Shown in pieces: positions 1,020 to 33,483 of a stretch of 37,444 nt of DNA. Position numbers and translations under genes: made by a program. Origin of the DNA: Pseudobdellovibrionaceae bacterium (GTDB taxonomy: Bacteria; Bdellovibrionota; Bdellovibrionia; Bdellovibrionales; JAMPXM01); contig CANHQR010000035.1 in assembly GCA_947462815.1 (NCBI GenBank), positions 1 to 37,444 of the forward strand. The letters are read 5' to 3'. The notes under the pieces were generated by a model. That model was given only the letters and a program-made list of their open reading frames with translations. It was not told where the DNA came from and did no database searches. Positions within the stretch are counted from its first letter, which is position 1; each line of letters opens with the position of its first letter.

Positions 1020-1670
1020 TCAGTACTCACACTTCATGTTGGAGATGTCGGAAGGTGTCGGTGATCGGCGCAAATAGGCATTGGGAAGACTTTTGGCCAT
1101 CACGCTTCCACCACTGTCCGAATGCGCAAGCCCCAGTACATGCCCTAGCTCATGAAGAACCAAGCTCTGAAGGTCGACTTTGCCAGCCTCGGGCGTGCTG
1201 CCCGTGAAGTATTCGAAATCGCGACCATTGATACGCAAGTCGGCCTCAAAGATCTTCGAACCCGCCCAAAACACGGTGGTGCGCGCTTGCTCGTTGCTCC
1301 GATCCAACTCCCAATTGTTCATGAAATAGATGACGTTCGAACCGTCCTGGCCAGGGGAAGTGCGATTCGACCAGCCGCCGAGCCGCAAGACCTCACGTCC
1401 CAGGGATTGATTCCAATCACGGATCGCCGCCTGAATGGGACCCTGAAAATGGGAAGGTACCGAGCTATCTAAATAGAGAGTCACGGGGACGTCGATCTTC
1501 CACGAGACTCTCTGCTGTTCGGCACTCATGACGAAGTTGCAGGGTTCTTGCGGCGTAAGTTGCGGCGCACAGGCTTGCAAAGCCATCGCGACTACGAGCG
1601 TACCCATCATCGCCAACCAGGGCTTTCTCGAAAACCCTCGTACGAGTTTGCGCCACTTTAATCCCAACAC
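1020..1670 (-). CDS. Small matrixin-like zinc metalloprotease, predicted lipoprotein
   Basis: A 216-residue secreted metzincin. The GTG start at 1670 is chosen because GAGGAG lies 9 nt upstream. A basic N-terminus and a hydrophobic segment (about 18-33) end in L-Q-A-C34, a lipobox-like site, so the protein is probably lipid-anchored in the envelope. The zinc site is H173-E-L-G-H177-V-L-G-L-A-H183 with E174 as the catalytic base. The Met-turn is at S189-V-M191, only eight residues after the third histidine, as in compact matrixins. The segment before it (residues about 58-160) fits a matrixin-like N-terminal subdomain. Two further cysteines (C44, C214) could form a disulfide. No propeptide cysteine switch is visible. 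The substrate is unknown. A second, much larger metzincin lies at 3847-7494. Confidence 0.88.
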   Translation of the reverse strand: MLGLKWRKLVRGFSRKPWLAMMGTLVVAMALQACAPQLTPQEPCNFVMSAEQQRVSWKIDVPVTLYLDSSVPSHFQGPIQAAIRDWNQSLGREVLRLGGWSNRTSPGQDGSNVIYFMNNWELDRSNEQARTTVFWAGSKIFEADLRINGRDFEYFTGSTPEAGKVDLQSLVLHELGHVLGLAHSDSGGSVMAKSLPNAYLRRSPTPSDISNMKCEY

Positions 1671-2741: not shown

Positions 2742-3581
2742 TTAAGCTTTGGTCACCGCGCGGCCCATCCGGTAGCCCACGCCCCGCACGGTTTCGATGA
2801 GCTCGCCCGGCGCCCCCAGCTTTTTACGAAGCGAGGCCATATGAACGTCGATGGTGCGATCCGTGACATGCGCTCCCTCTAGGGCTCGATCGCGCAGTTG
2901 CTCACGCGTCAAAACGTCTTCGCTCTGACGGAGAAGCTCAAGGAGAATCTTGTATTCAGTCAGCGTCAGGTGCAGCTCCTGGTCGCCAACAAAGGCGCGA
3001 TAGCTTCGCAGCTCGACACGAATCGGACCCTGGCGAAGTTCGCCAACTTCCCCGGGTGAAGCCTCAGTCGTCGGCTCATGCTTTGGCAATACGTTTTGCC
3101 GAGCCATAGAACGACGGACCACCGCGTGAATGCGCGCACCCAGCTCACGCGCCTGAAAGGGTTTGGTGACATAGTCGTCCGCACCAAGATCCAGCGCGAA
3201 AACCTTCTCTTCCTCGCCGGTCAGGGCTGTCACCATGATGATCGGCAAATTCTGGAATCTCTCCTCGGCGCGAATCAGCTTAATCACTTCGGTGCCACTC
3301 AAGCCGGGCATCATTTGGTCAACGAGTAGCGCTTGCGGAGTGTGGGCATCAAGTTGATGGATGATCGCATTGCCCGAGGAAAGAGTTTCGACCGCAAAGC
3401 CTTGGGCCTCGAGGAGCTCCTTCAAAATTCGACGGATCTCGAGTTCATCTTCAACCACCAAGACTTTGATCTTCTGCTGGGACAAGTTCGACTCCTGAGA
3501 CGCCTTGGTGAGACTGCTTCTGACCGCCCTAATTAATGAGCGATCTGTGGACTGATTTTCTACCCCTGTTATGGTCGCCAT
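2742..3581 (-). CDS. Orphan OmpR/PhoB-type response regulator
   Basis: A DNA-binding two-component regulator of 279 residues. The receiver domain spans about 37-155, with the acidic pair E44/D45, phospho-acceptor D88 in LLVDQMMPG, T118 and K140 in VTKPF. A linker (about 156-184) leads to a winged-helix effector domain (about 185-274) with the family signature LTLTEYKILLELL, then R-T-I-D-V-H-M-A-S-L-R-K-K-L and V-R-G-V-G-Y. The frame is open further upstream to 3761, but that part crosses the G run and looks untranslated. The ATG at 3581 is the best start, although its ribosome-binding site is weak. About 30 residues precede the receiver domain, more than usual. No kinase gene is adjacent. It is divergent from the protease/lipoprotein operon, so control of that operon is an attractive inference. 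Confidence 0.9.
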   Translation of the reverse strand: MATITGVENQSTDRSLIRAVRSSLTKASQESNLSQQKIKVLVVEDELEIRRILKELLEAQGFAVETLSSGNAIIHQLDAHTPQALLVDQMMPGLSGTEVIKLIRAEERFQNLPIIMVTALTGEEEKVFALDLGADDYVTKPFQARELGARIHAVVRRSMARQNVLPKHEPTTEASPGEVGELRQGPIRVELRSYRAFVGDQELHLTLTEYKILLELLRQSEDVLTREQLRDRALEGAHVTDRTIDVHMASLRKKLGAPGELIETVRGVGYRMGRAVTKA

Positions 3582-3846
3582 AAACACTCTGCATTCTGCG
3601 CAATATCTGCCCCAAGTCGCAGTCATCCGGCGGGCGGGGGGGGGGGCGCAAAATTGTCTCAGCTCAAGCCGCAAACCGCGCAATTTTGAACAGTGACTTC
3701 GGACATTTGCCCCCGGTTTTCCAAAAATTTCAATTATTCTCGATGTCCAACTTCTAGACACGCCGCGCTAGCAAGAGGCCCGGCAATTGAACCCTGGACC
3801 CATAAGCCCGAGGGGCGCTCATGCCTTTTGGGGTCCGGGAGGACTG
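3582..3846. promoter_or_regulatory. Divergent regulatory region between the response regulator and the lipoprotein operon
   Basis: These 265 bases must hold promoters for the minus-strand regulator and the plus-strand operon. They contain a G11 run (3636-3646), an A/T-rich patch (about 3719-3739, with TTCCAAAAATTTCAATTATT) and an inverted pair GGACAT (3701-3706) / ATGTCC (3743-3748) flanking that patch. I cannot assign convincing -35/-10 boxes. The operon start at 3847 has GGGAGG 6 nt upstream. A regulator-binding role for the inverted pair is only a guess. Confidence 0.5.
3636..3646. repeat. Homopolymeric run of 11 G
   Basis: Eleven consecutive G (C on the minus strand) lie 55 bp upstream of the response-regulator start and 200 bp upstream of the operon start. 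Runs of this length are prone to slipped-strand length change in replication and to sequencing error. Position in a promoter region is the classic arrangement for transcriptional phase variation, but nothing here proves that use. Confidence 0.95.
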
Positions 3847-6800
3847 ATGCCGACGAACACTTCTCTTCGACGCTGGAATTCACGTCTGCAGATCATGCGA
3901 ACCGGCCTGGCGGCCGGATTAGTGGCCGCGGCGGCTGTCGTGGCAGGTCTAACGCAAAGTGGATGTACGATTCGCACTCCGTCGACGGAGACCCCAGTCC
4001 CCAACGACACGGGCGTCGAAAAATCCTTCTTTGTGAATGAGGTCACGGCGGCCAATGGTCAAAAGGCACAGGCGCCGAAGACCTTTCTCTGCGGCTGGGC
4101 GCCGATCACCGAATCGGGCGCGATCGCATCCTCCATGCTCACGCACGCCGTGCACATGGCCGGTCATTGCAACATGGAGTTTGAGGTCACCGAGCAGTAC
4201 TTGATTGGTCGACTGGTCAACCCCTCCTTCCCTCAGGATCGCACCCGCTGGAAGCAGGCGCTGCTGATTCCGATTCGTCAGCATTATTATTACGAGCGCT
4301 CACGCGACAGTTATGGCCGCGAAACCAACGCTTTCGTTGAGAACTCGCAGCGCTCTCACTGGTCGGCACGTCCCCAAATGCAATTGGATCTGAGTGGCGT
4401 ACGTATCCAGGATTGGGATCTTGCGATGTTCTATAACTCACGCGACGCGGTGATCACTTCGGTCACGGATATCGAGTGGGATCGCGAGAACAACTTCTTG
4501 GGCTTCACGGCGGTCGCACAGAACCCACATTGGGGCTCGACCGTTCAAGCACGCTTGCGATTCAATTTCCGCGCGTTCCAACATAACCCTCGCTTTGAGA
4601 AGACGCCTTGGACTCCAGCGAATGCGCGGCATCTGAATGCTCTGCATGTCATCGGTGAAAAAGTGGAAGGCCTGACCCAGGTTTGGTCGGCCGCGAAGTG
4701 GGATCTTTCGAAGACGCATGACGTTTATACTTATGGCTTTCCCGAAGATCTGTTGCCCATGGCGGAAGAGGTCGTGGCCTCATGGAATGAAGCCTTGGCC
4801 AAGATCGGCAAGCCCAAGGCATTTCGTCTCAATCGCGAACGCGTTCGCTATCCATTTGATTTGCGTAAACCCATGATGGTGTGGGTCGACGATCCGCAGA
4901 TCTCCGCGCACTCACCCCTCGGCGTCGGCATGGCTCAAGCTGATGTTCGCAATGGTGAAATTCTTTGGGGCCAAATCACCATGTACGGCGGCATGCTCGA
5001 GCGCTACATCAAATCGCATTTGACGCCGTTGGCGGGTGGACACTCGGGACCCACGTCGCGGTCTGCAGGTCTTCGCGCGAGCTCACGCCCCTCGATCTTC
5101 CCAACTTACTTTAATCCCACGCGCGCCTTCGAAGCTCCTGCGGGCACAGGACCGGTCGCGATGAATGGTCAGCTGCAAGTGGCTCAAGAGAGTCTGAATA
5201 CCTTGACGGCTCGACTCGCTGAGCGCGTCCAAGCGACGGGTGCTCAAGAGCAAGAGCGCCAGCGCCAAGAGCAAGCCCGACTTCGAGCCCAAGACATTCG
5301 CACGCGTTTGGTCGAATCGCTGACTGAAACAACTCAGGAAATTCAGGCTCGATTGCAACGGGATGATCGACGTACAGATCTCATGAATCTCTTTGCATTT
5401 CCCGATCGAAGCACAGAAGAGGCCCGACGCGCGGCCTTTGGTCCCGATGCAAGCTCCATCAGCGCGCGCGAGATGCTCCGGCGCTTGAACGCTCACGGTC
5501 ACGAACATGCTCAGGGCGCCTCGGGGCGCGTGGTCCACGACTTGGATCGACGACTGATGGATGTCGGTCCGCAAATTCTTGCGGCGATCGAAACCTCGCA
5601 AGTCGACTATGAGACCGCGATGAAGCGCATCACTCGCGAACTCATCATGCACGAATTCGGTCATATGATTGGACTCGGCCATCAGTTCAAAGAAAACATT
5701 CTTCCTGCCGAGGGCACGGTGCCTGAGAAATACCGCGCTCCGCTTGTGGCCGCAGCTCAGAAGAATTGGACCAATTCCACTTCGGTGATGGGTTACAAAC
5801 ATCCCTTCACAGAAATTGCGGAAGACGGCGGACACGAGCCGGGACCGCAAGACTTACTGGTCCTTCGCTACCTCTATAACGGTGAATATGCGACCTATAA
5901 GCGTGGCGACGAAGACTTCATCTTTCACAAACTTCCGCCGAACGGCGTGATCCCTGCACGACACCCCGAGCGTCAGGACTACGTCACGTCTTACTTCCCG
6001 CAGTGCAATGACTTCGATGCAAGCTTTGCCGCCGACCCGTATTGCAATCGTTTCGATCGCGGCTATAACGCCGAAAGCATCGTGAAGTCCTATTTCGAAG
6101 ACCTCAATGCCAACATGGTATCGAAAATCTACGCCTTCACAGACTCACGAGGCGGAGACACCGAGGGGGCCGAAGGCGCTCTCTGGTGGAGGGCGCTCAC
6201 GACTTTGGGTCGTGTTCGAATCTTCTACGACCATATGCGCTCACGGTACGACGCCCAAATTCGTGAGATCGCGGAGAGCGAATCGGATTTGTACGAGTTC
6301 TCGCGGGCCTGCGACGGTGAGAACATCGGTTCAGCAAAGCTTCGTCGAATCTTGAACGACAATCCCGGACTCGCCGAACTCTGCAAAGTGAATCGACTCG
6401 CCGTCAAAGAGATGATGAACCTTCTCGTGATGCCGGGGCCGGATCGTTCGCGAATGAATTGGGATGACGCTGTCGCTCCGGCAGCCATGACCGGCGGCGA
6501 TGCGGATATGGATTACTCGCGCGCCTTCGGAACGCACTCTGCGCTCTCCGTCCTGCCCCTGAAACTGAGCGCGATCAACGCTCTCACCACGCCTTACCCC
6601 TATGCGATGTTGGGTGGCTGGATGTTCCCGATTCCGCGCTACACTGGTCAGGATGGTTTGTTCTCTTACTCCAGCCTTTACCCGATCGAATTCACCGAAG
6701 CCTTGGCCGTCGCGACAGAGAAGAACCTCAAGTTTGTGGCTCCGGGCTCGCGAGAACAGGCAACCATGGGACTTCCCATCGTGTCGATGGGGTACTTTAT

Positions 6801-7494
6801 CGATTCACAGCGACTCTCGAACGACTCGACACGCTTCCCACGCGACTTCATCGAGAACATTCGCTCGCAAACTGAATTCCGCCTATCCCTGCAGGCCATC
6901 ATCCTGCACGTGAAGACCCGGGAAGACAAAACTCAGGTGACGCACTTCGAAGCCGAGCTCTATGATCCACGTACGGACAAGACGACGAGAGTCCCTGAGG
7001 CCTTCATGTTGCCAGGCGGCAAGCTCATCGTTCGCCCGCCAAGCCGAAACTTCGTCTATCCGCTCACCAAGCTCACCTTCTTGAGTGACGAAATGGCTTT
7101 CGCTTGGGGATACCGCGTCGAGTACGACGACAAACACGACGATGTTTTGGCCGCGCATAGTGTGAAAGCTTCCCTCGAGAAGCTCCACAATCAGGTCGTG
7201 GATCAGTGTTTACGCGGACCCAATAACAACGGTCTCGCGAGCCACTTCAATGCTCAACAAGACCGCGCCGTCTTCGCTGGCTTCCAGATGATGAGCGGAA
7301 TTGCAGCCGATAAGGAAAAACAGATTCGCTTCTTAGATTCCGTCAAGCGCGCATTCGATGCGTACGAGCAGCGAAATCCAGGTCAGCGAAATGCTTGTGA
7401 GCAAAGCTTACGAGGCGTTGGTCTGATCGTCAGCTCGTCAGCCGTTGTGAATGGTTACTGGTTACCCGAAGTTCTCGACTATTTGGTGAAATAA
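3847..7494 (+). CDS. Large met-zincin-type zinc metalloprotease with lipoprotein-like signal
   Basis: A 1215-residue protein. ATG 3847 is chosen over an in-frame TTG at 3787 because GGGAGG lies 6 nt upstream and a basic N-terminus plus Ala/Val-rich helix then precede QSGC, a lipobox-like site (glutamine at -3 is non-canonical). The region around residues 355-380 (PLGVGMAQADVRNGEILWG) resembles the segment before the active site in bacterial zinc-dependent metalloproteases of the DUF4953/met-zincin type. A Gln/Arg/Glu-rich predicted coiled coil (about 449-508) is inserted before the catalytic core. The zinc site is H602-E-F-G-H606-M-I-G-L-G-H612 with E603, and the Met-turn methionine is M648 in SVMGYKHP. 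About 560 residues follow with no recognised domain. It probably cleaves proteins at the cell surface or in the periplasm. It is first of four coupled genes; the next starts 13 nt after its stop. Confidence 0.85.
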   Translation: MPTNTSLRRWNSRLQIMRTGLAAGLVAAAAVVAGLTQSGCTIRTPSTETPVPNDTGVEKSFFVNEVTAANGQKAQAPKTFLCGWAPITESGAIASSMLTHAVHMAGHCNMEFEVTEQYLIGRLVNPSFPQDRTRWKQALLIPIRQHYYYERSRDSYGRETNAFVENSQRSHWSARPQMQLDLSGVRIQDWDLAMFYNSRDAVITSVTDIEWDRENNFLGFTAVAQNPHWGSTVQARLRFNFRAFQHNPRFEKTPWTPANARHLNALHVIGEKVEGLTQVWSAAKWDLSKTHDVYTYGFPEDLLPMAEEVVASWNEALAKIGKPKAFRLNRERVRYPFDLRKPMMVWVDDPQISAHSPLGVGMAQADVRNGEILWGQITMYGGMLERYIKSHLTPLAGGHSGPTSRSAGLRASSRPSIFPTYFNPTRAFEAPAGTGPVAMNGQLQVAQESLNTLTARLAERVQATGAQEQERQRQEQARLRAQDIRTRLVESLTETTQEIQARLQRDDRRTDLMNLFAFPDRSTEEARRAAFGPDASSISAREMLRRLNAHGHEHAQGASGRVVHDLDRRLMDVGPQILAAIETSQVDYETAMKRITRELIMHEFGHMIGLGHQFKENILPAEGTVPEKYRAPLVAAAQKNWTNSTSVMGYKHPFTEIAEDGGHEPGPQDLLVLRYLYNGEYATYKRGDEDFIFHKLPPNGVIPARHPERQDYVTSYFPQCNDFDASFAADPYCNRFDRGYNAESIVKSYFEDLNANMVSKIYAFTDSRGGDTEGAEGALWWRALTTLGRVRIFYDHMRSRYDAQIREIAESESDLYEFSRACDGENIGSAKLRRILNDNPGLAELCKVNRLAVKEMMNLLVMPGPDRSRMNWDDAVAPAAMTGGDADMDYSRAFGTHSALSVLPLKLSAINALTTPYPYAMLGGWMFPIPRYTGQDGLFSYSSLYPIEFTEALAVATEKNLKFVAPGSREQATMGLPIVSMGYFIDSQRLSNDSTRFPRDFIENIRSQTEFRLSLQAIILHVKTREDKTQVTHFEAELYDPRTDKTTRVPEAFMLPGGKLIVRPPSRNFVYPLTKLTFLSDEMAFAWGYRVEYDDKHDDVLAAHSVKASLEKLHNQVVDQCLRGPNNNGLASHFNAQQDRAVFAGFQMMSGIAADKEKQIRFLDSVKRAFDAYEQRNPGQRNACEQSLRGVGLIVSSSAVVNGYWLPEVLDYLVK

Positions 7495-7507
7495 GCGGAG
7501 GCCTGCG

Positions 7508-10500
7508 ATGAAAACGACAAAGACTTGGATCGCTCTAATAGCCTCTGCACCATTTTGGGTGGCTTGCGTAAACCGAGAGGTGACCCACACTCCCCACGCG
7601 GGGCCGATCGCCGGCGACGAGATCGTCCAAGCTCCGGTGACGGAGACCGCCGACGAGCAGAGACTTCGCGCTCTCTGGAATCAGCCCATTTTAGCTCGTC
7701 GAACAAGTGAAAGCTCTCGCCCTGCTGGGGACCTCGAGGAAAATTTGCGCCGCCTCGAGCCCTACATTTTGAACGCCGCTTACGTGGAAAATCCGCGCCT
7801 CGCGAATACGCGCGTGATGCGAGCCGCTCTTCAGGCCTTCAATGCAGATCTCTTGGCTCTGCATGCGAGCTCTCCGGAAAAGGCCGCTCCTTGGCTGGAA
7901 CGCGTGCGAGTCATGATGGAGTCGGGCTGCGATGGCGAACTTCGCGGCTGTAACAACATTGGTTTCTTCCGCGGCGACGCAGGCTCGCCTCGTTTACTCG
8001 AGCTCGCAACGGCACCTGTTGATCGCGAAATTCGATCGCTCCGCGACGCACTGAAAACGCGACCCGACACCGAGAAACAGCAGCGTCTCAACGACTTGGT
8101 GCGGGTGTACTACCGTCGATTGTCCATTGCATTTGAAATGCGAAATCGCGTCGCTGACCCGAACTTTGAGTTTTCCTACCTTGCCCACGCGCGCGAGTAC
8201 GCGACGGCGATGGCGGGAGCCGCGGAAGGTTCACGAGAGCGCCAGCTCCTAAGTCGCCACACCGAAATCTTTGAGATCATCTTGAACCGCTTTAATCCGG
8301 ATCTCTCTAACCCGGAAATGCGCACGCGTTTTTCAGAGTTCATTGATGCTTTCTCTCCGTGGACCTATTCACGTCGAGCCGCCAATCCATTTGGTCAGGC
8401 GTCGACTCGACTTTTGAGCCTCGCAGCGACCGGATTTTTGTATGACGGAGCTCGGGTCAACGCTTCATTGACTCGCGCCATTCAAGAGTCCCAACGCCCG
8501 TCAGACCCGCCCGCGGATCAGGGTCTAGACACGTCCTTTGCCTCACTCGTTGCCTACATAAAAGCCCAGTCGCCCGGTATTTGGCGAAACCTCAAACTCC
8601 GCGATGACTTCGAGCGCGACGAATACTTTTTCATGGTGGATCGTCTGTTCGGTGATCACTTGACGGTGGACGATGTCACAGGAATCTGGCGTGGATCGCG
8701 ACGCGACTCGCGACGCGTGCTGGAGACGGCCGAGGCCTATATCAAGGTTCAGATCGCCGCACAAATTCTTCGGACAAACAAGTACATGAGTGAGATCTAC
8801 TCGAAGAAGGAATGGTCGTCGGCGACCTTGTTCACCAAGGCCATCGAACTGTCCTATCCCATCTCCACGCAGTGGAATCAGTTGCTCTCACGTGTGGATC
8901 GTGTCCAACTCTTCCTCGATCGAAACCTCAAGCGCGCCGATGGCGCTGTCGGTGAAGATGTCGATCGTTATCTCGAAGTGGAACGTGGGTTGTCCTCACT
9001 GCGCCGAAACATCAAGTATCTTTCGGTCTACCCGAACATGATGCTCATGGCTTTCTTTTTGGCCGAAGTGAATTTTAAAGTCACGGTCTACACATTCTTT
9101 GGAGCCTTTGAGATCGACTCAGCTGTTATCATCAGCTGGTTCTTCAACGGGCAAATGCGACCTCTGTTCAATTTTGGAAATGACGGCGAATCCCTGAAGC
9201 GCCTTGAAACTCTGTACGCCTTCCTCTTCGCCCTCGACACCGAGACCTTTAAGGCCTTTCAGGTGAATGAAGCTCAGCGACTCGACACGCAGACTTTCTT
9301 CCGCGTCGTACTCGGTAAGTTCTTGGACGCGAATCGTCTGTCGATGCAGCAGTCGTTGGATCGCGTGCGGTCCAGAATGCAGCAGTCGACAACTTTAGGG
9401 ACATTCATGCAGGCCTGTCAGTCTCAGGATGCCAACCCGATCGCCTTGGAGTTTCGTCAAATCAACAGTGTCGTCTATATGGGTGGCAGCGGCTTCGGCG
9501 AAGACGCCTACAAGTTCCATGAAAACTTGATCGTCAACAACGTGCGTGAGATTCGGGAAGAATTGGGACCTAAGCTGCAGTTTGTGGAGATGATGATCGA
9601 CACGCTCAGGACTCAGCAGCTGCGTTCCGGCGAGTCGCAAGCGAACGTTGAGGCCGAAATCACGCGGATTCGCTCGTCCCTGCAAGACATCGAGCGCCTC
9701 CAGGCTGAGTTTTTAACTGAAACTCTTCGTCACCACACGCGTTTGAGTCCTTGTATTGATCGAGCCAATCGCATCGAACATGAGCGCCAGGCGCAATTAA
9801 TCTTCGACGAGAAGAAGCACCTGGAAGACGTTTGGACCGCAATGAATGAAGCTCGTGCGCTCAATGGCGGGACCCAAGCCCAGCGTCTCACCGCGGCCAA
9901 TGAAGCGCTGAAGCAGACACTCGCGCTACAAACCTTCAATACGGGCAATGATTATCGACCACTCTCGTCGATCAGCACAGATGTCTACGTGTACAGCGAG
10001 CTCGATGTGCTGCTGCGACTCCGCGCCAACATCGAAAGTCGCCGTGGCGAATGGAAAACACGTATCATTATGCCGTCGGATCTGACCGATACAGAGGCTT
10101 GGCGCAATCGTCGCCAAAGCGTCATTCCCTTCCGCGCGAGCAAAGAGGAGTTTGTTCGCGAGGGGCTCAAGAGCTGGAATGGCACGTACTCAGGATACAT
10201 TCGCTGGTTGGCATCAACTTCGGATGTGGACAACTTGAAGTATCGTTTGGCCCTCAACGCGGAACTCTACAAGTTGGGCCAAATGAAGCTCTTCAAGATC
10301 AATGATCCAAGCTGTGTCGACAAGCCGATGACCGATTGCCCATTGATGGACTTCCGTCTGACGGCTGAGACTCTCGTCCGCAGCTCCCTGGATGTCGCTC
10401 GCAATCTTTCGATGCTCGATGAGCAAGGTCGGCCGACTCGCGACACTCAGGCTCTCGCATTGACCGGCGCTAAGGCACGCTATGGACGAGACAAACTGAA

Positions 10501-10981
10501 GGACTTCTTGCTCGATAAGAACTTAGATCCTCAGTCGCTTATGGAATGGACCTACTCCCAGCTCACCAACGATGAGGTGGCTATGGAACAAGGTCGACAG
10601 TTTGCGACCCTCGCTCGCTCGGCCGGTCACTTCTTGTTCGCCCCTGGCCGTGAAATCGAAGATCAAGTTGCCGATCGGATTTCCGCAATCGTACGTACAC
10701 ATTTCGGTCAAGTCGCCGAGTTTGAGTCCGCTCTGCAAAAGCAGGAATTGGAAGACGCTCGGCAGAATCGCGTCGTTCGCTTCGCCTATGAGATTCGTGA
10801 CGATGGTCGTGGGTTTCTCGAAGTCGCTTCGCCCACTTCACGTCGGGAAGGTGTTGAGGCGCCGACCTATCTCGCGCGGCAGAAGATCGAAGACTTTGCA
10901 ACTCGGCGCTCGCTCTACAACCGAGAAACGAATGGCTTGCTCTTAGACCGCACGGCGCCAGCCGCTCGTCGAGGACAGTGA
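7508..10981 (+). CDS. Giant predicted lipoprotein A, unknown family (paralogue of 12344-15865)
   Basis: An 1157-residue protein with GGAGG 6 nt before the ATG. A short signal peptide ends at F-W-V-A-C20, so lipidation is likely though tryptophan at -3 is unusual. No known domain is recognised. The protein looks largely alpha-helical, with many Arg/Glu/Leu stretches and helical blocks around 690-780. It shares a colinear layout with the protein at 12344-15865. Both carry C-D-x-E-L-R-G-C (C141/C148 here). Both have a hydrophobic block starting near residue 499 (RRNIKYLSVYPNMMLMAFFL here) followed by an EID-x8-SWF-x-G pattern, and a later C-I-D-R. The paired cysteines suggest a disulfide, hence an envelope location. 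It sits in an operon between the met-zincin and a barrel-like protein. A structural or substrate-binding partner of that assembly is plausible; function unknown. Confidence 0.8.
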   Translation: MKTTKTWIALIASAPFWVACVNREVTHTPHAGPIAGDEIVQAPVTETADEQRLRALWNQPILARRTSESSRPAGDLEENLRRLEPYILNAAYVENPRLANTRVMRAALQAFNADLLALHASSPEKAAPWLERVRVMMESGCDGELRGCNNIGFFRGDAGSPRLLELATAPVDREIRSLRDALKTRPDTEKQQRLNDLVRVYYRRLSIAFEMRNRVADPNFEFSYLAHAREYATAMAGAAEGSRERQLLSRHTEIFEIILNRFNPDLSNPEMRTRFSEFIDAFSPWTYSRRAANPFGQASTRLLSLAATGFLYDGARVNASLTRAIQESQRPSDPPADQGLDTSFASLVAYIKAQSPGIWRNLKLRDDFERDEYFFMVDRLFGDHLTVDDVTGIWRGSRRDSRRVLETAEAYIKVQIAAQILRTNKYMSEIYSKKEWSSATLFTKAIELSYPISTQWNQLLSRVDRVQLFLDRNLKRADGAVGEDVDRYLEVERGLSSLRRNIKYLSVYPNMMLMAFFLAEVNFKVTVYTFFGAFEIDSAVIISWFFNGQMRPLFNFGNDGESLKRLETLYAFLFALDTETFKAFQVNEAQRLDTQTFFRVVLGKFLDANRLSMQQSLDRVRSRMQQSTTLGTFMQACQSQDANPIALEFRQINSVVYMGGSGFGEDAYKFHENLIVNNVREIREELGPKLQFVEMMIDTLRTQQLRSGESQANVEAEITRIRSSLQDIERLQAEFLTETLRHHTRLSPCIDRANRIEHERQAQLIFDEKKHLEDVWTAMNEARALNGGTQAQRLTAANEALKQTLALQTFNTGNDYRPLSSISTDVYVYSELDVLLRLRANIESRRGEWKTRIIMPSDLTDTEAWRNRRQSVIPFRASKEEFVREGLKSWNGTYSGYIRWLASTSDVDNLKYRLALNAELYKLGQMKLFKINDPSCVDKPMTDCPLMDFRLTAETLVRSSLDVARNLSMLDEQGRPTRDTQALALTGAKARYGRDKLKDFLLDKNLDPQSLMEWTYSQLTNDEVAMEQGRQFATLARSAGHFLFAPGREIEDQVADRISAIVRTHFGQVAEFESALQKQELEDARQNRVVRFAYEIRDDGRGFLEVASPTSRREGVEAPTYLARQKIEDFATRRSLYNRETNGLLLDRTAPAARRGQ

Positions 10982-10982
10982 T

Positions 10983-12344
10983 ATGAAACAGCCTGCCTTC
11001 AATGACAAACTGGGCGACAAATCGAAGCGTCAAAAAGGGCGCAAGATCGCTGTCGCGGCTTGGGGTCTATGCGCCTCATTGGTGATTGTTGGATTTCAAC
11101 CAAATATCGCTTTGGCAACAATCTCTCAGGCATCGAATGCCCAGGGCAGCAAAAAATCAGCAACAGCATCTCGCTCGACGAAACTTGCAAAGAGCCAATC
11201 CGTTCAGAAGTCGAACACGTCGCGGGCCTCCGCAATGAAGATCGCCCAGCCCAAGGTGAAGCGCACGTTCATCAGCTTTGATGAAGCCCCAACTCAAAGT
11301 ACAAGATCCGCTGTACAGGGGCCCGCACGACCACGCAAGCAGGCCAAGGCCCTGAAAGCACCCCAGCTCATGTTTGCTTCAGGCGCCGTCGCACCGACGA
11401 GTCTGTACCTGCCGGACACAGATGAAATGACCGTGACCCGCCAGCGCGAAGATCAACTCCGCGGCAAATCCGAAAGGACCAAGCGACGAATCCTCGTCGA
11501 TGAAGATCATGATGTTGGCAGTTCGCGGCTATCGACAGCGACTGAGGCGTCGGACGAGTCCAAGCAGCGCTTCAAGCTTCGCCCCTCGTTGAATTACTCG
11601 GTTCGTTCTGATCTGGCCGATGAACGCGACCCGAGAATCAGCACGCACCGCTTGGGCGCCGCGATGTCGGCGACGATTTTCAATCGCGCGATCACACCTG
11701 GCTTTGACGAAGAGATGGCCGATGAACTCCTCACCCTCTCCGCCTCGATTTCAGGACAGGCGCGCACCATTGGCCAAGAGCTCGATGGCCAGCAAGGTGG
11801 CTTCGATCTCGCCGATCTCGATATCGCCGCCAGCCGAAGCTTTGATCTCGGCGACTGGGCCACGGCCTCGCACAGCTTAGACGCCGCCTTAGGTACGAAT
11901 ATTCCGACCTCGGTGGACTCACAGTATGAGGGCGTCAAGGCAGTTCCCTACGCCAGCCTCGGTGTCGCCTCGAGCTTTCGAGGAGGGCGAGTCCAATTGC
12001 TGAATTCCGTCACCGGTGACTATGTGGTCAACACCTACACCTTTAGCCCCTCCTCCCGCCAAATCAATCCTGACGCGTCTGTGGGTTATACCCTCGGTGG
12101 ATCGGTTCTCATTGCCTCAGGATTTCGATTTGGCGTCTCGGCTACGGCACGACTTACGCATCATCTCGACGAGAGCGTATCGAACGGCTTTTCGAACCAA
12201 CAGACGCTGTCCTGGTCGAACAAAACTTGGACAGTGGCTTTGCGACATTCGAATGGATCACGACCTGAAGATCGAGAGAGCAACTTGTGGTTCTTTGATC
12301 AGGTTCGACGAATGGTCGCGCTCAGCGTAACCGCGAGGTTTTAA
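10983..12344 (+). CDS. Secreted protein with probable outer-membrane beta-barrel C-terminal domain
   Basis: A 453-residue protein with GAGGA 7 nt before the ATG and only 1 nt after the stop of lipoprotein A, so translation is probably coupled. The N-terminus has a long basic region, a hydrophobic stretch (about 22-40) and a signal-peptidase-I-like end at I-A-L-A45. Residues 46-190 form a Ser/Lys/Arg/Gln-rich, probably disordered linker. From about 197 to the end, short alternating hydrophobic strands with Gly/Ser/Asn-rich turns lead to a terminal phenylalanine (ALSVTARF), as in outer-membrane barrels recognised by the BAM machinery. The barrel call rests on strand pattern and the terminal Phe, not on a recognised family. 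Its place between two homologous lipoproteins suggests a membrane anchor or pore for them. Confidence 0.72.
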   Translation: MKQPAFNDKLGDKSKRQKGRKIAVAAWGLCASLVIVGFQPNIALATISQASNAQGSKKSATASRSTKLAKSQSVQKSNTSRASAMKIAQPKVKRTFISFDEAPTQSTRSAVQGPARPRKQAKALKAPQLMFASGAVAPTSLYLPDTDEMTVTRQREDQLRGKSERTKRRILVDEDHDVGSSRLSTATEASDESKQRFKLRPSLNYSVRSDLADERDPRISTHRLGAAMSATIFNRAITPGFDEEMADELLTLSASISGQARTIGQELDGQQGGFDLADLDIAASRSFDLGDWATASHSLDAALGTNIPTSVDSQYEGVKAVPYASLGVASSFRGGRVQLLNSVTGDYVVNTYTFSPSSRQINPDASVGYTLGGSVLIASGFRFGVSATARLTHHLDESVSNGFSNQQTLSWSNKTWTVALRHSNGSRPEDRESNLWFFDQVRRMVALSVTARF

Positions 12345-15300
12345 TGCAGCGATCGTGGCGGCAAATGACATCAGCTTCGAGCCGGGCCATGCTCAGCCTC
12401 GTGAGCACTTTGCTGCTCGCGCAGGCCGCTTGTACGCGCGACGCAAGCCTTCGCCGCCCGCATTCGCCCGATCGTCCAACCGAAGCCACAGCGCCGACTC
12501 CGGTTTCCCCGCAGGCACGCGCCGCTGTCGTTCCCGCAAGCCGCGATCAGCAAAGTCGAGCTCGAGAGTTTGAACAATTCTTCGAGCCCTCGCGCTTTGA
12601 ACAAAAAGCTGCGCGCCCCGATCAAGCCTTTCGCGACGAAGTTTCGCAGTGGCTCGTTCGCGGTGTTGAGTTACTCAGCACCACAGAGCGAAGAAGTGTT
12701 TTGCGCGCTTTCACGCGCGTCGCACTGCTGGGCTGCGACGCGGAATTGCGGGGATGCCGTGTGGCAAACCGCTTTCGCCGAACACCGGGGGCTGTCGAGC
12801 TCCTTTTGGCGGCAGCTGACGACGTGAGCTCGGAGAGCGAAAGCTCGGCCGATCAAATCTCAAATCGGCACCGTTTGCTGAGCTTGGCATTTGCCGCAGC
12901 CGGAGAGGCACATGATTCACGAATTGGCGAGGCCTGGATCCGCACCGCAAAGGCCTATGAGGATACTTTACGAACTGAGCTGACACGAACTGAGCGCGAA
13001 CGCCGATCAGAGATGGCCAATTCGATTCGTCGCCGATTGACCGAGAGCCAAGAAATTGTCGATGTGGTCCTCTCGCGTTTGAATCTCACCTCAGCGGACG
13101 CACAAACATTGCTGGATCGACTTGTTCAGGATTATGGCGCTTGGAATTTCGATGCACCCCGCGACCCGCGCTTGAGCGCTCGGCGCGAAGCACTTCTTCG
13201 CGCCGTTGCTCCAAGGCTCTTGACCCAGGAGTTTATTCGTCAAGATCTGCAACGCGTTCGCGATCGTCGCGAGTCGGTCGGGCCGCAATTGGCCGAACTT
13301 TTCCGGCTTCGGCCCTGGGCTGAGGAAACCTTGGGCTTGCAGCGCGAGCTACCTCAAGACTTCAATTTGTGGGTTTTCGAAAGCTTGTGGATGGATCGAC
13401 TCACAGCCGCAGAGGCCGTGCAGCTTCGCGAGGTCCACCTACAAAACCTCTCTCGGTCTTCAGGCGCGTCCGGCGTGTCGGCATTTAACCTTGATGCATA
13501 TCGAGAGTCAGAGCGCCACGCATTCCTCAACTACTTGCGCACACGCTTGCTCCTGACATCTCGCCAAGCCAACGCGATCATCGCCGAATTTTTCAGCGGT
13601 GATCATGGCCGAGTGAATTCCGCCAATGCCGTTCAAGAGGGCGTCAACGAATCTCATAAAGGTCAACAGATTTGGGCGGATGCCAAAAGACGCTTTGAGA
13701 GCTTGCGTGCCTATTCCGAGCGAACTCTGCGAGCTGGGTCTTCAGCTCCTGCGGCCACAAACCCTGGCGTGGGTGCCGACGCGCTCTCCCCGTTACTCTC
13801 TCCCCTACAAAAGGTCGACCTCTTCTTTGCGAGCCTCGATCGAAATATCAAGCTCACTTCGACATATCCGAGCATGTTGATCATGGCCTACCACTTGGCA
13901 CGCCTCAACTTTGTCATGCGCATTATGACTTGGGGTGGAGTGGTTGAGATCGACGGCGGACAAATCCTCAGTTGGTTCGTTCGTGGCGAAGTGAATCCCT
14001 GGTTTGCCTACGGCTCTGACTTTCAAAGCATCCCAAGCCCTGAGATCCCGATGGTGTTTCATTACGCTTTGGAATTGGGTACGCTGGAGCAGTCGAAGAT
14101 CGAGCTCCCCCACTTCTTTCAACTGCTCGCGGCGCAGACCATTGGTCCGCATCGCGTTTCGGCCGAGAAAGTTGAGCTCGCCTACCGCACGCGGTTTGAA
14201 GAGTCTGCGGATATGCATGAGTTTCGCTCTCGTTGCCGTGAGATTCAGTCTCCCCACGCCAAGACTTCGGTCCAATCACAGCTGCGAAGTCTTCGTTGGT
14301 TTACGAGCTTCGGCTTTCCGCAGTCGCTTCATCATAATCGATCCGTCAATTTCGAGCCACGCGCCTCCGAGCTCTTGATGGAAGCAGGCGGCTTCTACAG
14401 CACCGAACGCGACATCACGAAGGTTCGACTCGATGAGAATATCGAGACCCTGCGCCTCGATTTAGGAACGATTCTCGAAAAGGTGCAGATCTTTGAACGA
14501 ATGGCTCAGATGCACCTGCGTCGCAACCAACGTGACGAGATCGCTCGCGGCATCCGCGCTCATCTCGAACCCATCGAGCGTCTGCAAAAAACAGCTTATC
14601 GACAAATCGCGAAACTCAATGAAGAGATTGGCGGCTGCATCGACCGTATGGTTCGCCACGAAATGACGAGCCAAAGCTTTACGATAAACGCCTGGATTGA
14701 GCATCTCAAGCAGGTGCATGCTGCCATGACGATTCTCCGTCAGCGGCAAGTGACAGAGCGACAAACTGACTTGAATCTCCTAGGGCGCCTCCAACAAACT
14801 GGCGAATCCCTCCAAGGTTACGCGGAACACGAGCAAGCCCTTGGATACGATCATGAGTCCTACCGAAGCACAGGCTTACAGGTCGTGCTGCGTATGAAGC
14901 TGTTCTTGGAGCACGGCGCGAGCATCGGCGGCCAAGTTCGCCAGGGCCCTCGCCAAGCTCGAAGCATCTTGTTGCCTCAGCGCTTGCGAGACCTGCCGAC
15001 AGAATTGCGAGAGAAGGAAGTCCGAATTCCCTACACAAACGATGTCAACGAGTTTGTAGACTTCGGATTGCGGGCCACGATCGGCGGCGTAGCACAAGGC
15101 GTGGTCCACTGGGCCGATCAAAACTCGATTTCGCTCTCCTACAATCACCGCATGCGCGCTCTGATCGCCTTGCAGAAGGCCTTGGCTTCGACCCAAGTGA
15201 ACAAGTCCGAAACGGGCCCAGGAGCCCAGGAGTTTTGGCGTGCGGACGTTCAAGCCGTTCAACGAGCCGCCCTCGAAATGCAGCGCTGGTTTGAACCCGA

Positions 15301-15865
15301 TGAAGTTTGGACACGTGTGTTGCGCGCGACAGGCCGAGGCGTACGCCCCGATATCTCGTCCTTCCTTGATGAAATCGCATGGCGGAAAGGCGAAGACACC
15401 CCGCGAGGGCTTCTGGATCATGCCTTTGAGACCATGAGTTCAGATAAGCTGGGCGAAACGGATGGCGAGGCGGCTATGTCTCGACAGCGTGGACGTTCCT
15501 CACCAAAAACTGAGTTCATGTCATACCGACTGGCTCGCCAGAGCCGAGGTTTACCCGCTATTGAGCTTCCGGCTGAGGCTGAGGCCGAGATCAAAAATTT
15601 CTACGAAGACCGCCTGAACACCCAGCTCAAACTGACCGCTGGTTTCTTACGCGAAGCCCAACGCGTCGACGCCGACCGACGCCAACGCCCTGCCCAATAC
15701 CCCGCATGGCGCATGAATGTGCTGCGCCCGAGCCGCGACGCTTTGAGCATTCCAACTCTGAGCCCTGCCGTGATCACGGAGTTCCAATCGCAAATGGGTG
15801 AGCTCACTCGCGAAACGGGCTATCAGCTCCCTGAAGAACTGACCTCGGCCCTCCGGGGTCGCTAA
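12344..15865 (+). CDS. Giant predicted lipoprotein B, unknown family (paralogue of 7508-10981)
   Basis: An 1173-residue protein whose ATG overlaps the TAA of the barrel gene by one base (TAATG). GAGG lies 5 nt upstream, inside that gene. A signal peptide ends at L-A-Q-A-A-C30, lipoprotein-like. It is colinear with protein A: C131-D-A-E-L-R-G-C138, a hydrophobic block beginning at residue 499 (DRNIKLTSTYPSMLIMAYHL) followed by EIDGGQILSWFVRG, and a later GGCIDR. Overall identity looks low outside these blocks, so the duplication is old. A Pro/Ala/Ser-rich low-complexity stretch (about 467-485) is specific to this copy. No catalytic motif is seen. It is the last gene of the operon; a weak hairpin and a tRNA gene follow. 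Function unknown, probably in one complex with its neighbours. Confidence 0.8.
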   Translation: MQRSWRQMTSASSRAMLSLVSTLLLAQAACTRDASLRRPHSPDRPTEATAPTPVSPQARAAVVPASRDQQSRAREFEQFFEPSRFEQKAARPDQAFRDEVSQWLVRGVELLSTTERRSVLRAFTRVALLGCDAELRGCRVANRFRRTPGAVELLLAAADDVSSESESSADQISNRHRLLSLAFAAAGEAHDSRIGEAWIRTAKAYEDTLRTELTRTERERRSEMANSIRRRLTESQEIVDVVLSRLNLTSADAQTLLDRLVQDYGAWNFDAPRDPRLSARREALLRAVAPRLLTQEFIRQDLQRVRDRRESVGPQLAELFRLRPWAEETLGLQRELPQDFNLWVFESLWMDRLTAAEAVQLREVHLQNLSRSSGASGVSAFNLDAYRESERHAFLNYLRTRLLLTSRQANAIIAEFFSGDHGRVNSANAVQEGVNESHKGQQIWADAKRRFESLRAYSERTLRAGSSAPAATNPGVGADALSPLLSPLQKVDLFFASLDRNIKLTSTYPSMLIMAYHLARLNFVMRIMTWGGVVEIDGGQILSWFVRGEVNPWFAYGSDFQSIPSPEIPMVFHYALELGTLEQSKIELPHFFQLLAAQTIGPHRVSAEKVELAYRTRFEESADMHEFRSRCREIQSPHAKTSVQSQLRSLRWFTSFGFPQSLHHNRSVNFEPRASELLMEAGGFYSTERDITKVRLDENIETLRLDLGTILEKVQIFERMAQMHLRRNQRDEIARGIRAHLEPIERLQKTAYRQIAKLNEEIGGCIDRMVRHEMTSQSFTINAWIEHLKQVHAAMTILRQRQVTERQTDLNLLGRLQQTGESLQGYAEHEQALGYDHESYRSTGLQVVLRMKLFLEHGASIGGQVRQGPRQARSILLPQRLRDLPTELREKEVRIPYTNDVNEFVDFGLRATIGGVAQGVVHWADQNSISLSYNHRMRALIALQKALASTQVNKSETGPGAQEFWRADVQAVQRAALEMQRWFEPDEVWTRVLRATGRGVRPDISSFLDEIAWRKGEDTPRGLLDHAFETMSSDKLGETDGEAAMSRQRGRSSPKTEFMSYRLARQSRGLPAIELPAEAEAEIKNFYEDRLNTQLKLTAGFLREAQRVDADRRQRPAQYPAWRMNVLRPSRDALSIPTLSPAVITEFQSQMGELTRETGYQLPEELTSALRGR

Positions 15866-16006: not shown

Positions 16007-16083
16007 GACCGCGTAGCTCAGACGGATAGAGCAACGGTTTCCTAAACTGTAGGTCGGCAGTTCGACTCTGCCCGCGGTCACCA
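16007..16083 (+). tRNA. tRNA-Arg (anticodon CCT)
   Basis: A full cloverleaf can be folded by eye. The 7-bp acceptor stem is GACCGCG/CGCGGTC. The D arm is GCTC/GAGC. The anticodon stem is ACGGT/ACTGT with loop TTCCTAA, giving anticodon CCT, which reads the arginine codon AGG. The T arm is GGCAG/CTGCC with loop TTCGACT. Discriminator A is followed by an encoded CCA (16081-16083). The gene is single, between the lipoprotein operon and murJ. I saw no duplicated 3' end that would mark an integrated element. Confidence 0.96.
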
Positions 16084-16427: not shown

Positions 16428-18068
16428 ATGTCTGACCTTAACGATTCCGCTCAATTCACTGGCCCCGGAGAGCCGAGGCGCCTGGCGAACAGATTGAGCG
16501 GCGCCTTAGCCGTCGCGAGCGGAATTTTTCTGAGCCGTATCGTCGGCCTGGTTCGACAAAAGTTCCTGGCACACTATTTCGGCGCCAGCGATTACGCCGA
16601 TGTCTTTCAAGCGGCGCTCAAAATTCCAAATTTTCTGCAGACTCTTCTTGGCGACGGTGTCATGTCGGGAAGTTTGATTCCTGTGTACGCTCGGCTTCGC
16701 GCCGAGGGCCGCCACGAAGAAGCTAACCAAGTCGCGTCGGCAACCGCCCAGTGGATGGCCCTCATCAACACCGTGATCGTGGGCGTGAGCATACTCCTCG
16801 CGCCTTGGGTTATTCCGTTGTTGCTGCCAGGATTTTCTGCTGAGAAGCAAGCTCTCACCGTGCAGCTGGCGCAGATGTTGTTTCCCGGAATCGGCGCCCT
16901 TGCCCTGTCTGCTTGGTGCCTGGGTGTTCTCAATTCCCACGGACGATTCTTTCTTTCTTACGCAGCTCCCGTCATTTGGAATGTGAGCATCATCACCGCT
17001 CTCGTTTATTACGGGACAGATTGGTTTGGCCAGTCACTCCCCCCTGAAGAATTGGTTGTGCAAACCACCTGGGGCGTTGTGATTGGCTCCTTCCTCCAAC
17101 TCCTCGTGCAGGTCCCCGCCGTTCTCGGACATATCAATTGGAAGTGGGGACTCGCCTCTGGGTCATCCCATGTGAGGCAGGTGGCGAAAAGTTTTTTTCC
17201 TATCGTTTCCGGTCGAGGTGTTGTCCAACTGAGTGCTTATGCCGATAACCTCATCGCCTCGCTTCTCCCGAGTGGCGCACTCGCCACTTTGGCGTACGCG
17301 CAGACACTTTACATGCTGCCCATCTCATTGTTCGGTATGTCGATCTCCGCTTCGGAGCTTCCTGCGATGTCGAGCGCACTCGGCACACGCGAGCAAATCT
17401 CTCTGCAGTTACGCGATCGGCTACAAGCCAGCAGCGCTCGCGTGGCCTTCTTCATTATCCCGACCTGTGGAGTGTTCTTGTTCTTTGGAGCCGATGTCTT
17501 GAGCGCATTGTTTGGCGGCGGACGATTCGACGCACAAGCGATACGGGCTTCGCAGTGGGCTTTAATCGGATACAGTCTGGCCTTGTTTCCGACGACACAG
17601 TCTCGACTCCTGGTCTCCGCCTTTTATGCTCTGAAAGATGCGCGCACGCCATTTCGCGCATCAGCCGCCCGCGTGCTCGCCGCGTCTCTGATCGGCGCAG
17701 CCCTCGCACTCTACTTCGAAGAGTCGTCTCAAGGCGCCCTCCCCGCTTCTGTTCTCGGCCTTACGTTGGGGACAGGGCTCACCAGCTGGCTGGAGTGGCT
17801 TTGGCTGCGAAAGAAATTGCAACTTGAAATTCCTGATCTCAGTGTAGAGTCGCGACTTATCGTGAAGCTTCTGTTGATCTCGCTTCTCGCTTTGCTCATA
17901 GGTTTTGTCCTCGGACACTATCTGACGGATTTGCCGAGACTCGCCCGAAGTGGAGCCGTTCTGTGCACGATCGGTACGATCTACATCGTCTGCACCTACC
18001 TGGCGCAGGTCTCCACCGCACGTGAGATCGTTCGGCGAGTGCGCCGCCGCTCAACTCAACGCCCCTAA
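16428..18068 (+). CDS. murJ: Lipid II flippase MurJ (MviN)
   Basis: MurJ moves the peptidoglycan precursor lipid II across the inner membrane. The 546-residue length and the many hydrophobic helices (about 14) fit the MOP-superfamily MurJ group. The N-terminal signature is clear: SGIFLSRIVGLVRQKFLAHYFG, then ADVFQAALKIPNFLQTLLGDGVMSGSLIPVY, then a cytoplasmic-loop-like RAEGRHEEA. A later stretch (VVQLSAYADNLIASLLPSGALATLAYAQTLYMLPISLFGMSI) is also typical. The ATG at 16428 is the family-like start; its ribosome-binding site is weak. It stands alone, downstream of the tRNA and convergent with the serine protease gene, with only 54 bp between the two stops. Confidence 0.96.
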   Translation: MSDLNDSAQFTGPGEPRRLANRLSGALAVASGIFLSRIVGLVRQKFLAHYFGASDYADVFQAALKIPNFLQTLLGDGVMSGSLIPVYARLRAEGRHEEANQVASATAQWMALINTVIVGVSILLAPWVIPLLLPGFSAEKQALTVQLAQMLFPGIGALALSAWCLGVLNSHGRFFLSYAAPVIWNVSIITALVYYGTDWFGQSLPPEELVVQTTWGVVIGSFLQLLVQVPAVLGHINWKWGLASGSSHVRQVAKSFFPIVSGRGVVQLSAYADNLIASLLPSGALATLAYAQTLYMLPISLFGMSISASELPAMSSALGTREQISLQLRDRLQASSARVAFFIIPTCGVFLFFGADVLSALFGGGRFDAQAIRASQWALIGYSLALFPTTQSRLLVSAFYALKDARTPFRASAARVLAASLIGAALALYFEESSQGALPASVLGLTLGTGLTSWLEWLWLRKKLQLEIPDLSVESRLIVKLLLISLLALLIGFVLGHYLTDLPRLARSGAVLCTIGTIYIVCTYLAQVSTAREIVRRVRRRSTQRP

Positions 18069-21586: not shown

Positions 21587-22996
21587 TCACTCCTCGTCCG
21601 GGAGTTCGTCGTCGTCGACTTTTCCTAGATTGTACTTCTCGACGCGATAGCGCATTGAGCGGAACGTGATTCCCAAGAGCTTCGCCGCGCGCTTCTTGAC
21701 ACCGTTGGCTTGATGAATCGCTTTCACCAACAGCTCTTTTTCGAGTTGGTCGATCACCTTCTGGAGATCGATCCCCTCATCGGTGATCTCGATTCCATCG
21801 CTTGAGACCATCTTGCGACCACTTGGCGTGTTCACAAATTGTGGTAAGGACTCAGGCAACACGGTTGCACCTGACTCGAGGGCCACGGTGCGCTCGATGA
21901 TATTTTCGAGCTCTCGGACGTTGCCCGGGAAATCGTACTTCTTGAGTAGATCCATCGCTTCTTTGGAGATACTCTGGATGGCCTTACCGAACCGATCGTT
22001 ATACTTCTGCAAGAAGTGATTGGCGAGTAGCGGAATATCATCGCGACGTTCTCGCAGAGCCGGAGTTTTGATGTTGATGACGTTCAAACGATAAAACAAA
22101 TCTTGGCGGAAAGTCCCGTGCTTGGTCATGTCCTCGAGGTCGCGGTTCGTGGCCGCGATGATTCGAACATCGACTTTAATATCTTCTGTCGCACCCACGC
22201 GACGGATCACACGCTCTTGAATCGCGCGCAGAATTCGCACTTGCGACTGCAGAGGCAATTCGCCAATCTCGTCAAGAAAGAGAGTTCCACCATCAGCGAT
22301 CTCAAACAGACCCGGCTTATCCGCGACCGCCCCCGTAAACGAACCCTTCTTGTGACCAAATAATTCCGATTCCACCAGGTTCTCAGGGATCGCTCCGCAG
22401 TTGACAGAAACAAAGGGCTTATCCTTCAGCGGCGAGTTGAAGTGAATGGCTTTCGCCACCATCTCCTTACCCGTACCAGATTCACCTGTGACCAACACGT
22501 TCGTTGGAGCATCGGAAACTTTGCGAATCAATTCGAAGATCTTATGCATCGCCTCGCTGTTGCCGACGAGGTTCTGGAAGGAGTACTCCTTTTGGAGCTC
22601 CTTGCGCATAACGCGGTTTTCGACTTCCAAGTTTTTGGATCGAAGCGCGTTGGCAATGTTGATGCGAACTTCATCGATGCGGAAAGGCTTGGTGATGTAG
22701 TCGTACGCGCCCATCTTCATGGCTTCCACGGCGCTCTCCGCCGTACCGAAGGCCGTGATCATCATGAACAGGACGTCCGGATAGTTTTCTCGCGAGTGCT
22801 TGAGCAGCTCTAAACCCGTGACGTTCGGCATCTGCAAGTCAGAGATCACCAAATCAAAAGTTTTCTTCTTGAGTGTATCGATCGCCTTTTGGCCATCCTC
22901 TACGCAAGTGACTTCATAGCCCTCTTTGCGAAGCATGATGTCCAGAAATTCGCGGATTGATTCTTCGTCATCGACGACCAAGATGCGTGGCTTCAT
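21587..22996 (-). CDS. pilR: PilR-type sigma-54-dependent response regulator
   Basis: A 469-residue NtrC-family activator that, when phosphorylated by its partner kinase, drives RNA polymerase with sigma-54; in type IV pilus systems the target is usually the pilin gene. The receiver domain is at 1-120 with D9/D10, phospho-site D53 and K103. The AAA+ domain spans about 140-375, with Walker A GESGTGKE (171-178) and Walker B GGTLFLDEIGEL (236-247). The C-terminal Fis-type helix-turn-helix lies at about 420-462. The sigma-54 contact loop reads G218-S-F-T-G-A instead of GAFTGA. The tail is acidic (DDDELPDEE). The PilR assignment rests on its place after pilC and a PilS-like kinase. No pilin gene is in the window. 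Confidence 0.92.
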   Translation of the reverse strand: MKPRILVVDDEESIREFLDIMLRKEGYEVTCVEDGQKAIDTLKKKTFDLVISDLQMPNVTGLELLKHSRENYPDVLFMMITAFGTAESAVEAMKMGAYDYITKPFRIDEVRINIANALRSKNLEVENRVMRKELQKEYSFQNLVGNSEAMHKIFELIRKVSDAPTNVLVTGESGTGKEMVAKAIHFNSPLKDKPFVSVNCGAIPENLVESELFGHKKGSFTGAVADKPGLFEIADGGTLFLDEIGELPLQSQVRILRAIQERVIRRVGATEDIKVDVRIIAATNRDLEDMTKHGTFRQDLFYRLNVINIKTPALRERRDDIPLLANHFLQKYNDRFGKAIQSISKEAMDLLKKYDFPGNVRELENIIERTVALESGATVLPESLPQFVNTPSGRKMVSSDGIEITDEGIDLQKVIDQLEKELLVKAIHQANGVKKRAAKLLGITFRSMRYRVEKYNLGKVDDDELPDEE

Positions 22997-23115
22997 GTTG
23001 CTCCGTCCTCACTCAAGACCTCATCGAATCCGCCGATCAGGGGGCAAGAATATCTTCTCACCCTCGACGCGGCTTCGATTTGTCTCCAGTCTTTCTGCGC
23101 CCTTTGAGCGTCTCA

Positions 23116-24918: not shown

Positions 24919-24981
24919 CCTGCCAGATCCACCTTTCTCACCAAACGCGCGGCTGTCCCGCCGCTCACGCTCAGCTCATGT

Positions 24982-26190: not shown

Positions 26191-26234
26191 CCCTCACCCC
26201 ATATGGCGCTCGCACCGCACCGTTTGGCCAGCCC

Positions 26235-27302: not shown

Positions 27303-27395
27303 GTTACATCCCTAGCGCTGAAAGCCCACAAACTTTACGAACTCAGTACCCCAAAAAATCACGACTTTGAGACGAACCCAACTCCGACCTGCCCG

Positions 27396-31329: not shown

Positions 31330-31404
31330 GTTGTTCAATTTACGACTCCCGCGCCATTGGGTCGAGGCCATAGACAATTCGTCTGCCCCTTGCTACATGG
31401 CGTT
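31330..31404. promoter_or_regulatory. Short divergent promoter region of ribF and the CHASE2 kinase
   Basis: Only 75 bases separate the chosen starts of ribF (minus) and the kinase gene (plus), so both promoters must lie here or reach into the coding regions. No clear -35/-10 pair was found by eye on either strand. Confidence 0.4.
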
Positions 31405-33360: not shown

Positions 33361-33423
33361 CCGATACCCCTCGGAGAATGTGTTAAAGGACAAGCGCAGA
33401 CGCGCGATATGAGTTAGCTTAGG

Positions 33424-33470
33424 GCACGTGCAAAACTGTGCTCTGCAGTGAGCGGGAATTCGAGTCCCGC
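33424..33470 (+). other. Two small hairpins in the leader of the NtrC-type regulator gene
   Basis: Between the kinase stop and the regulator ATG (33484), GCAC/GTGC can pair at about 33424-33441, and GCGGGA (33452-33457) pairs perfectly with TCCCGC (33465-33470) around a 7-nt loop. The second hairpin ends 3 nt before the AGGACGG ribosome-binding site (33474-33480), so it could influence translation. A regulatory role is not shown. Confidence 0.35.
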
Positions 33471-33483
33471 AAAAGGACGGAAG

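Follow-up and report, generated by a model that had tools for sequence, protein, structure and literature searches.

What task would call for a zinc protease, two giant lipoproteins and an outer-membrane barrel to be encoded back to back in a member of the phylum known above all for its predators of other bacteria? The window, that is the whole 37,444-nucleotide stretch analysed here from a Pseudobdellovibrionaceae contig (CANHQR010000035.1), carries such an arrangement on its plus strand from 3847 to 15865, as an operon of four genes spaced by 13, 1 and -1 nt (Table 1). These spacings, the coordinates and the protein lengths (1215, 1157, 453 and 1173 aa) had been given in a preliminary description made from the sequence alone and are exact; its view that only exported products are encoded is supported for all four proteins. 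A strong ribosome-binding site, GGGAGGA, supports the protease start at 3847, and promoter- or terminator-like sites are no commoner in the operon region than in shuffled sequence. A cytoplasmic or metabolic assignment was rejected, as no such family was found for any of the four proteins.

Table 1. Features of the four-gene operon and of its upstream neighbours (positions counted from the first nucleotide of the window).
Feature	Position	Strand	Basis or conservation
Secreted matrixin-type protease, a conserved operon neighbour in three further family genomes	1020-1670	-	
Divergent OmpR-type response regulator, outside the operon core	2742..3761	-	60-63% identity to counterparts in three other family genomes
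Shine-Dalgarno-like GGGAGGA ahead of the protease start	3837..3843	+	Sequence
Gene 1: predicted metzincin lipoprotein protease, 1215 aa	3847..7494	+	
Cys40 of the protease, candidate lipidation site, after a hydrophobic stretch	3964..3966	+	Invariant in 20 homologues
Zinc-binding motif HEFGHMIGLGH, residues 602-612	5650..5682	+	Sequence, homologue alignment
Met-turn SVMGY, residues 646-650	5782..5796	+	Sequence, homologue alignment
Gene 2: predicted giant lipoprotein A, 1157 aa	7508..10981	+	
Cys20 of A, candidate lipidation site, after the signal peptide	7565..7567	+	Invariant in 18 sequences
Gene 3: predicted outer-membrane barrel protein (P0003), 453 aa	10983..12344	+	
Basic, Ser/Lys-rich N-terminal stretch of the barrel protein, disordered in the model	11118..11552	+	Sequence, AlphaFold2
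Predicted 12-stranded barrel domain, residues 197-453, C-terminal Phe	11571..12341	+	AlphaFold2 model
Gene 4: predicted giant lipoprotein B, 1173 aa, paralogue of A	12344..15865	+	
Cys30 of B, candidate lipidation site	12431..12433	+	Sequence

The product of the first gene, announced as a zinc protease, has the catalytic residues expected of one. The HExxHxxGxxH zinc motif and the Met-turn, which together form the signature of PF16313 (DUF4953 'Met-zincin'), are present in 20 of 20 homologues, among which H602, E603, H606, G609, H612, M648 and Y650 do not vary, and the zinc motif is kept in all 26 four-gene proteases. Pfam ranks Met-zincin, matrixin and M43 highest for the protein, with no M48 peptidase domain among the matches, and sequence searches for solved relatives returned short zincin-motif matches only. 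Against PF16313 the window protease scores 19.9 bits, below the gathering cut-off of 24.2. Since the profile matches 20 of 20 four-gene members weakly, at E-values up to 1 (best 1.4e-11), and homologous proteases of a two-gene module exceed the cut-off (25-52 bits), we assign gene 1 to the PF16313 superfamily as a metzincin lipoprotein. It shares the catalytic signature of that family and differs from it by a long, poorly conserved insert of variable length (approximately residues 390-580) ahead of the active site, as well as by its operon with A, B and a barrel. The sequence of gene 1 thus shows a metzincin destined for export, its zinc site intact and its lipobox-type Cys invariant. In one relative (L110:4555-8390, minus strand), the protease gene is read as two overlapping frames, reflecting a frameshift or an assembly error.

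Genes 2 and 4 had been described as twin lipoproteins and are indeed homologous over about 1000 residues (23% identity, E 1e-38). A tree of 50 sequences separates all A from all B as two sister clades divided by a single branch (SH-aLRT 96), which traces the pair to one duplication that predates the operon's spread; the quick method and the long branches leave the inner topology of this tree unsure. Sequence relationships identify A and B as true, ancient paralogues. Conserved residues of A include Cys141, 148, 637 and 749, the pairs 141/148 and 637/749 being invariant or nearly so, and Cys20, 637 and 749 are invariant across A and B combined; the two pairs of A would suit an oxidising compartment. 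The AlphaFold2 model of A is almost wholly helical (mean pLDDT 85.9, pTM 0.75). Compared with solved structures in a whole-chain search, in which a familiar sub-domain may escape notice, and with viral folds, it reached at best Z 7.7, with Foldseek TM-scores below 0.2, and these best matches were rejected as homologues, being generic helical repeats only. Similarly, sequence search for solved relatives of A gave one chance-level match only, and Pfam holds no credible family for A or B; SusD was matched by Pfam in none of 35 A/B proteins and was not listed in the structure search of A. A large family without a Pfam match, with a confident model of A that lacks a clear solved-structure match, represents new protein space.

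The product of gene 3, previously called barrel-like, is modelled by AlphaFold2 with 12 strands and a C-terminal Phe (pLDDT mostly 83-93 except in two loops), which identifies it as a predicted 12-stranded outer-membrane barrel. Pfam has no family for it. Among solved structures it comes closest to the 12-stranded COG4313 channel (4rl8, Z 18.2) and to FapF (5o65/5o68, Z 17.6), at about 10% identity; barrel size and the 12-strand fold are alike, a likeness that points to a common fold and does not establish that these proteins belong to one family. The FapF system differs from the operon, which has no conserved Fap-like genes beside it and in which the N-terminal stretch of the gene 3 product is disordered in the model. 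This low-confidence stretch is far longer in the window than in most relatives. A solitary barrel homologue with a lysine-rich N-terminal tail was also seen (L132:8171-9385, minus strand), in a genome that has four barrel-less operon copies.

Scattering of the genes in relatives had been named as evidence against a functional unit. Loci were located by searching genome contigs with a protease profile, a scan with A alone giving no match. About 25 loci, spread over several families and over more than one class, keep the genes as neighbours, and where the locus is intact the order is protease-A-barrel-B or, if the barrel is missing, protease-A-B; the one exception (L123) has the barrel gene ahead of the protease. 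Small gaps or short overlaps separate the genes across these loci, larger overlaps being probably start-codon artefacts of ORF calling. Such recurrence exceeds chance. All 29 loci in the named genome collection lie in metagenome-assembled Bdellovibrionota genomes. In this phylum the A profile gave matches in 23 of 369 genomes; setting aside two weak fragments, the 21 remaining genomes all also carry the four-gene protease clade. Within the window's order the carriers represent four families (f1, f3, f6, f9), and beyond the window's class they represent two (f12, f21). In the genus-level group g11, neither of the twin lipoproteins was found. A phage or mobile origin was rejected, viral contigs giving no match, and an anti-phage defence system was set aside, as PADLOC models gave no match.

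Barrel-less copies were found in four genomes (four copies in G076, others in G110, G268 and G304), which have a related barrel gene elsewhere; this suggests that the latter may be shared with the barrel-less operons, although some genomes are incomplete. As several copies do without it, the barrel is not an obligatory subunit encoded with each operon. The preliminary description had deduced a defined stoichiometry, hence a complex, from the tight coupling of the genes. Coupling by itself proves neither, and the barrel, which several paralogous operons do without, does not have to be present in equimolar amounts.

Other evidence bears on association. Patristic distances of the trees correlate at 0.85 for protease and A, 0.76 for protease and B and 0.85 for A and B, values reached in none of 1000 shuffles and inflated by shared species history. 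These mirror trees and the strict co-occurrence favour a physical complex, and sequence comparison indicates that the four genes are inherited together as a unit. Relative to the protease, A diverges 1.27 times and B 1.56 times as fast, and the proteases of the four operon copies of G076 are only 32-37% identical to one another. Expansion into copies so distant, together with the faster divergence of A and B, fits substrate diversification rather than housekeeping; the fast divergence of A and B could alternatively reflect relaxed constraint. Strict conservation and repeated multiplication of the operon imply a real function.

A wider module helps to place this unit. Relatives detected with the protease profile are present in 291 of the 369 Bdellovibrionota genomes. 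At six loci of the first set, a metzincin lipoprotein gene adjoins that of a small exported barrel-like protein in the absence of A and B, and the same adjacency recurs without A or B in about 17-18 of 20 further, more distant loci. In L201 and L218 the metzincin has no neighbouring barrel gene, and in a few loci the barrel gene is convergent or downstream; in L203 (5111-9896), for instance, the two genes are convergent rather than co-directional. Profile comparison relates the two-gene barrels to P0003 (97.4% probability, E 1e-11). Like the four-gene operon, this pair, which was absent from the preliminary description, places a metzincin lipoprotein beside a related small barrel gene, usually adjacent and often co-oriented; unlike it, it lacks A and B and has proteases of a separate clade, the four-gene proteases forming one clade against 25 two-gene relatives (SH-aLRT 100). 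The active sites differ as well, being of the HELGHNLGLRHNF type in the two-gene proteases and of the HExGHxxGLGHQFKEN type in the four-gene ones. Related barrel-metzincin pairs without A and B elsewhere in the phylum tie the barrel functionally to the protease. From these comparisons, the two-gene pair is the nearest relative of the operon and likely its ancestral part, and the operon is best understood as an elaboration of the pair to which the twin giant lipoproteins were added. The pair also occurs in g11, the most densely sampled genus-level group of the order and probably Bdellovibrio, which would make the idea that the barrel binds and positions the lipoprotein protease, and the targets of the latter, approachable in a tractable predator. 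The preliminary description recognised no described system of this make-up, and the open-access literature indeed yielded no published description of either the pair or the operon. No known system shares the composition of the operon, half of which belongs to a family that lacks known relatives.

Taken together, we tentatively propose, with a probability of roughly 0.4, that the operon encodes an outer-membrane-anchored proteolytic complex that captures and cleaves proteins and acts outward. The three lipoproteins would sit on the outer membrane, grouped round the barrel or close to it. The most rapidly evolving components, A and B, would form a helical cradle catching protein substrates and handing them to the metzincin for cleavage, and the barrel would anchor the assembly or let peptides or protein segments pass. 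Directed at proteins of prey, of a host or of the environment, the unit would serve as an accessory module, multiplied and diversified in some genomes for different substrates.

A somewhat unlikely alternative turns the complex inward, to envelope maturation or quality control: the metzincin would trim or degrade outer-membrane or surface proteins of the cell itself, much as BepA acts at LptD or BAM. A and B would then serve as chaperone-like adaptors, and the barrel would be either a client or a platform. Lipoproteins of most diderms face the periplasm by default, the conserved Cys pairs of A suit that oxidising compartment, and relatives of the protease domain occur almost throughout the phylum, mostly with a barrel gene as neighbour, as for a core function. 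The four-gene form is on the contrary patchy (about 21 of 369 genomes) and occurs in several diverged copies in some genomes, unlike a housekeeping system, and the protease is a metzincin; a BepA-type M48 assignment fails on its Met-zincin, matrixin and M43 families.

It is distinctly unlikely that the barrel exports a protein or peptide that the metzincin processes, A and B being export or assembly factors in a secretion or surface-maturation system. The amyloid-subunit exporter FapF, a polypeptide transporter, is indeed among the best structural neighbours of the barrel; its top match is however a general channel, so that the likeness is generic, no conserved small secreted substrate gene lies in or beside the operon across families, and operons without a barrel exist. 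More doubtful still is a complex for predation or inter-cell adhesion, in which A and B would bind the prey surface and the metzincin open or remodel the prey envelope. The carriers belong to the predator phylum and secreted proteases are known to act in Bdellovibrio predation, the 2025 predation proteome reporting secreted serine proteases and one uncharacterised zinc-metalloprotease homologue, Bd3137 (PMC12546842). That the twin lipoproteins were not found in g11, probably Bdellovibrio itself, argues against such a role.

The outward-acting capture-and-cleave complex can be set beside two known designs. SusC-SusD nutrient systems combine an outer-membrane barrel with a surface helical lipoprotein and are multiplied within genomes, as the operon is. 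Their barrel is a 22-stranded TonB-dependent receptor with a plug, whereas 12 strands are predicted here and a protease is built into the operon; a SusCD assignment fails on the barrel (12 strands, no Pfam match). In MIB-MIP of mycoplasmas, one protein captures and one protease cuts, a logic like that proposed here; the protein families differ, the host is wall-less, and the comparison is by description only. An unlikely, bolder version sees a new class of outer-membrane protein-degrading machine, in which paired giant helical lipoproteins of new fold would capture whole proteins at the surface, a lipid-anchored metzincin cut them and the 12-stranded channel take in or release the pieces, the whole having evolved from an older barrel-metzincin pair across the predator phylum. 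If true, it would do for proteins what SusCD systems do in capturing glycans, with copies multiplied within a genome to suit different targets.

The operon has the same neighbours in four genomes of the window's family: a divergent OmpR-type regulator (60-63% identity), which is a candidate for controlling it, and a secreted matrixin (51-56%). Histidine-kinase-related proteins adjoin the operon in L190 and L191, and regulation by environmental signals is plausible. Also encoded in the window (31357-34902, plus strand) are a CHASE2 histidine kinase and, next in order, a sigma-54 activator carrying a receiver domain; relatives of these adjoin the operon in L190 and L191. Downstream of the operon lie tRNA-Arg (16007-16083), then murJ (16428-18068) and, further on (21587-29138, minus strand), a type IV pilus-type cluster comprising a sigma-54 response regulator, a PilS-like kinase, a T2SSF protein and two T2SSE-type ATPases. 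Upstream of the window's protease no counterpart was found of a small single-span membrane protein gene that immediately precedes the protease in L107 (16285-16653, minus strand) and L108 (16688-17077, minus strand); the two small proteins are 68% alike over 41 aa.
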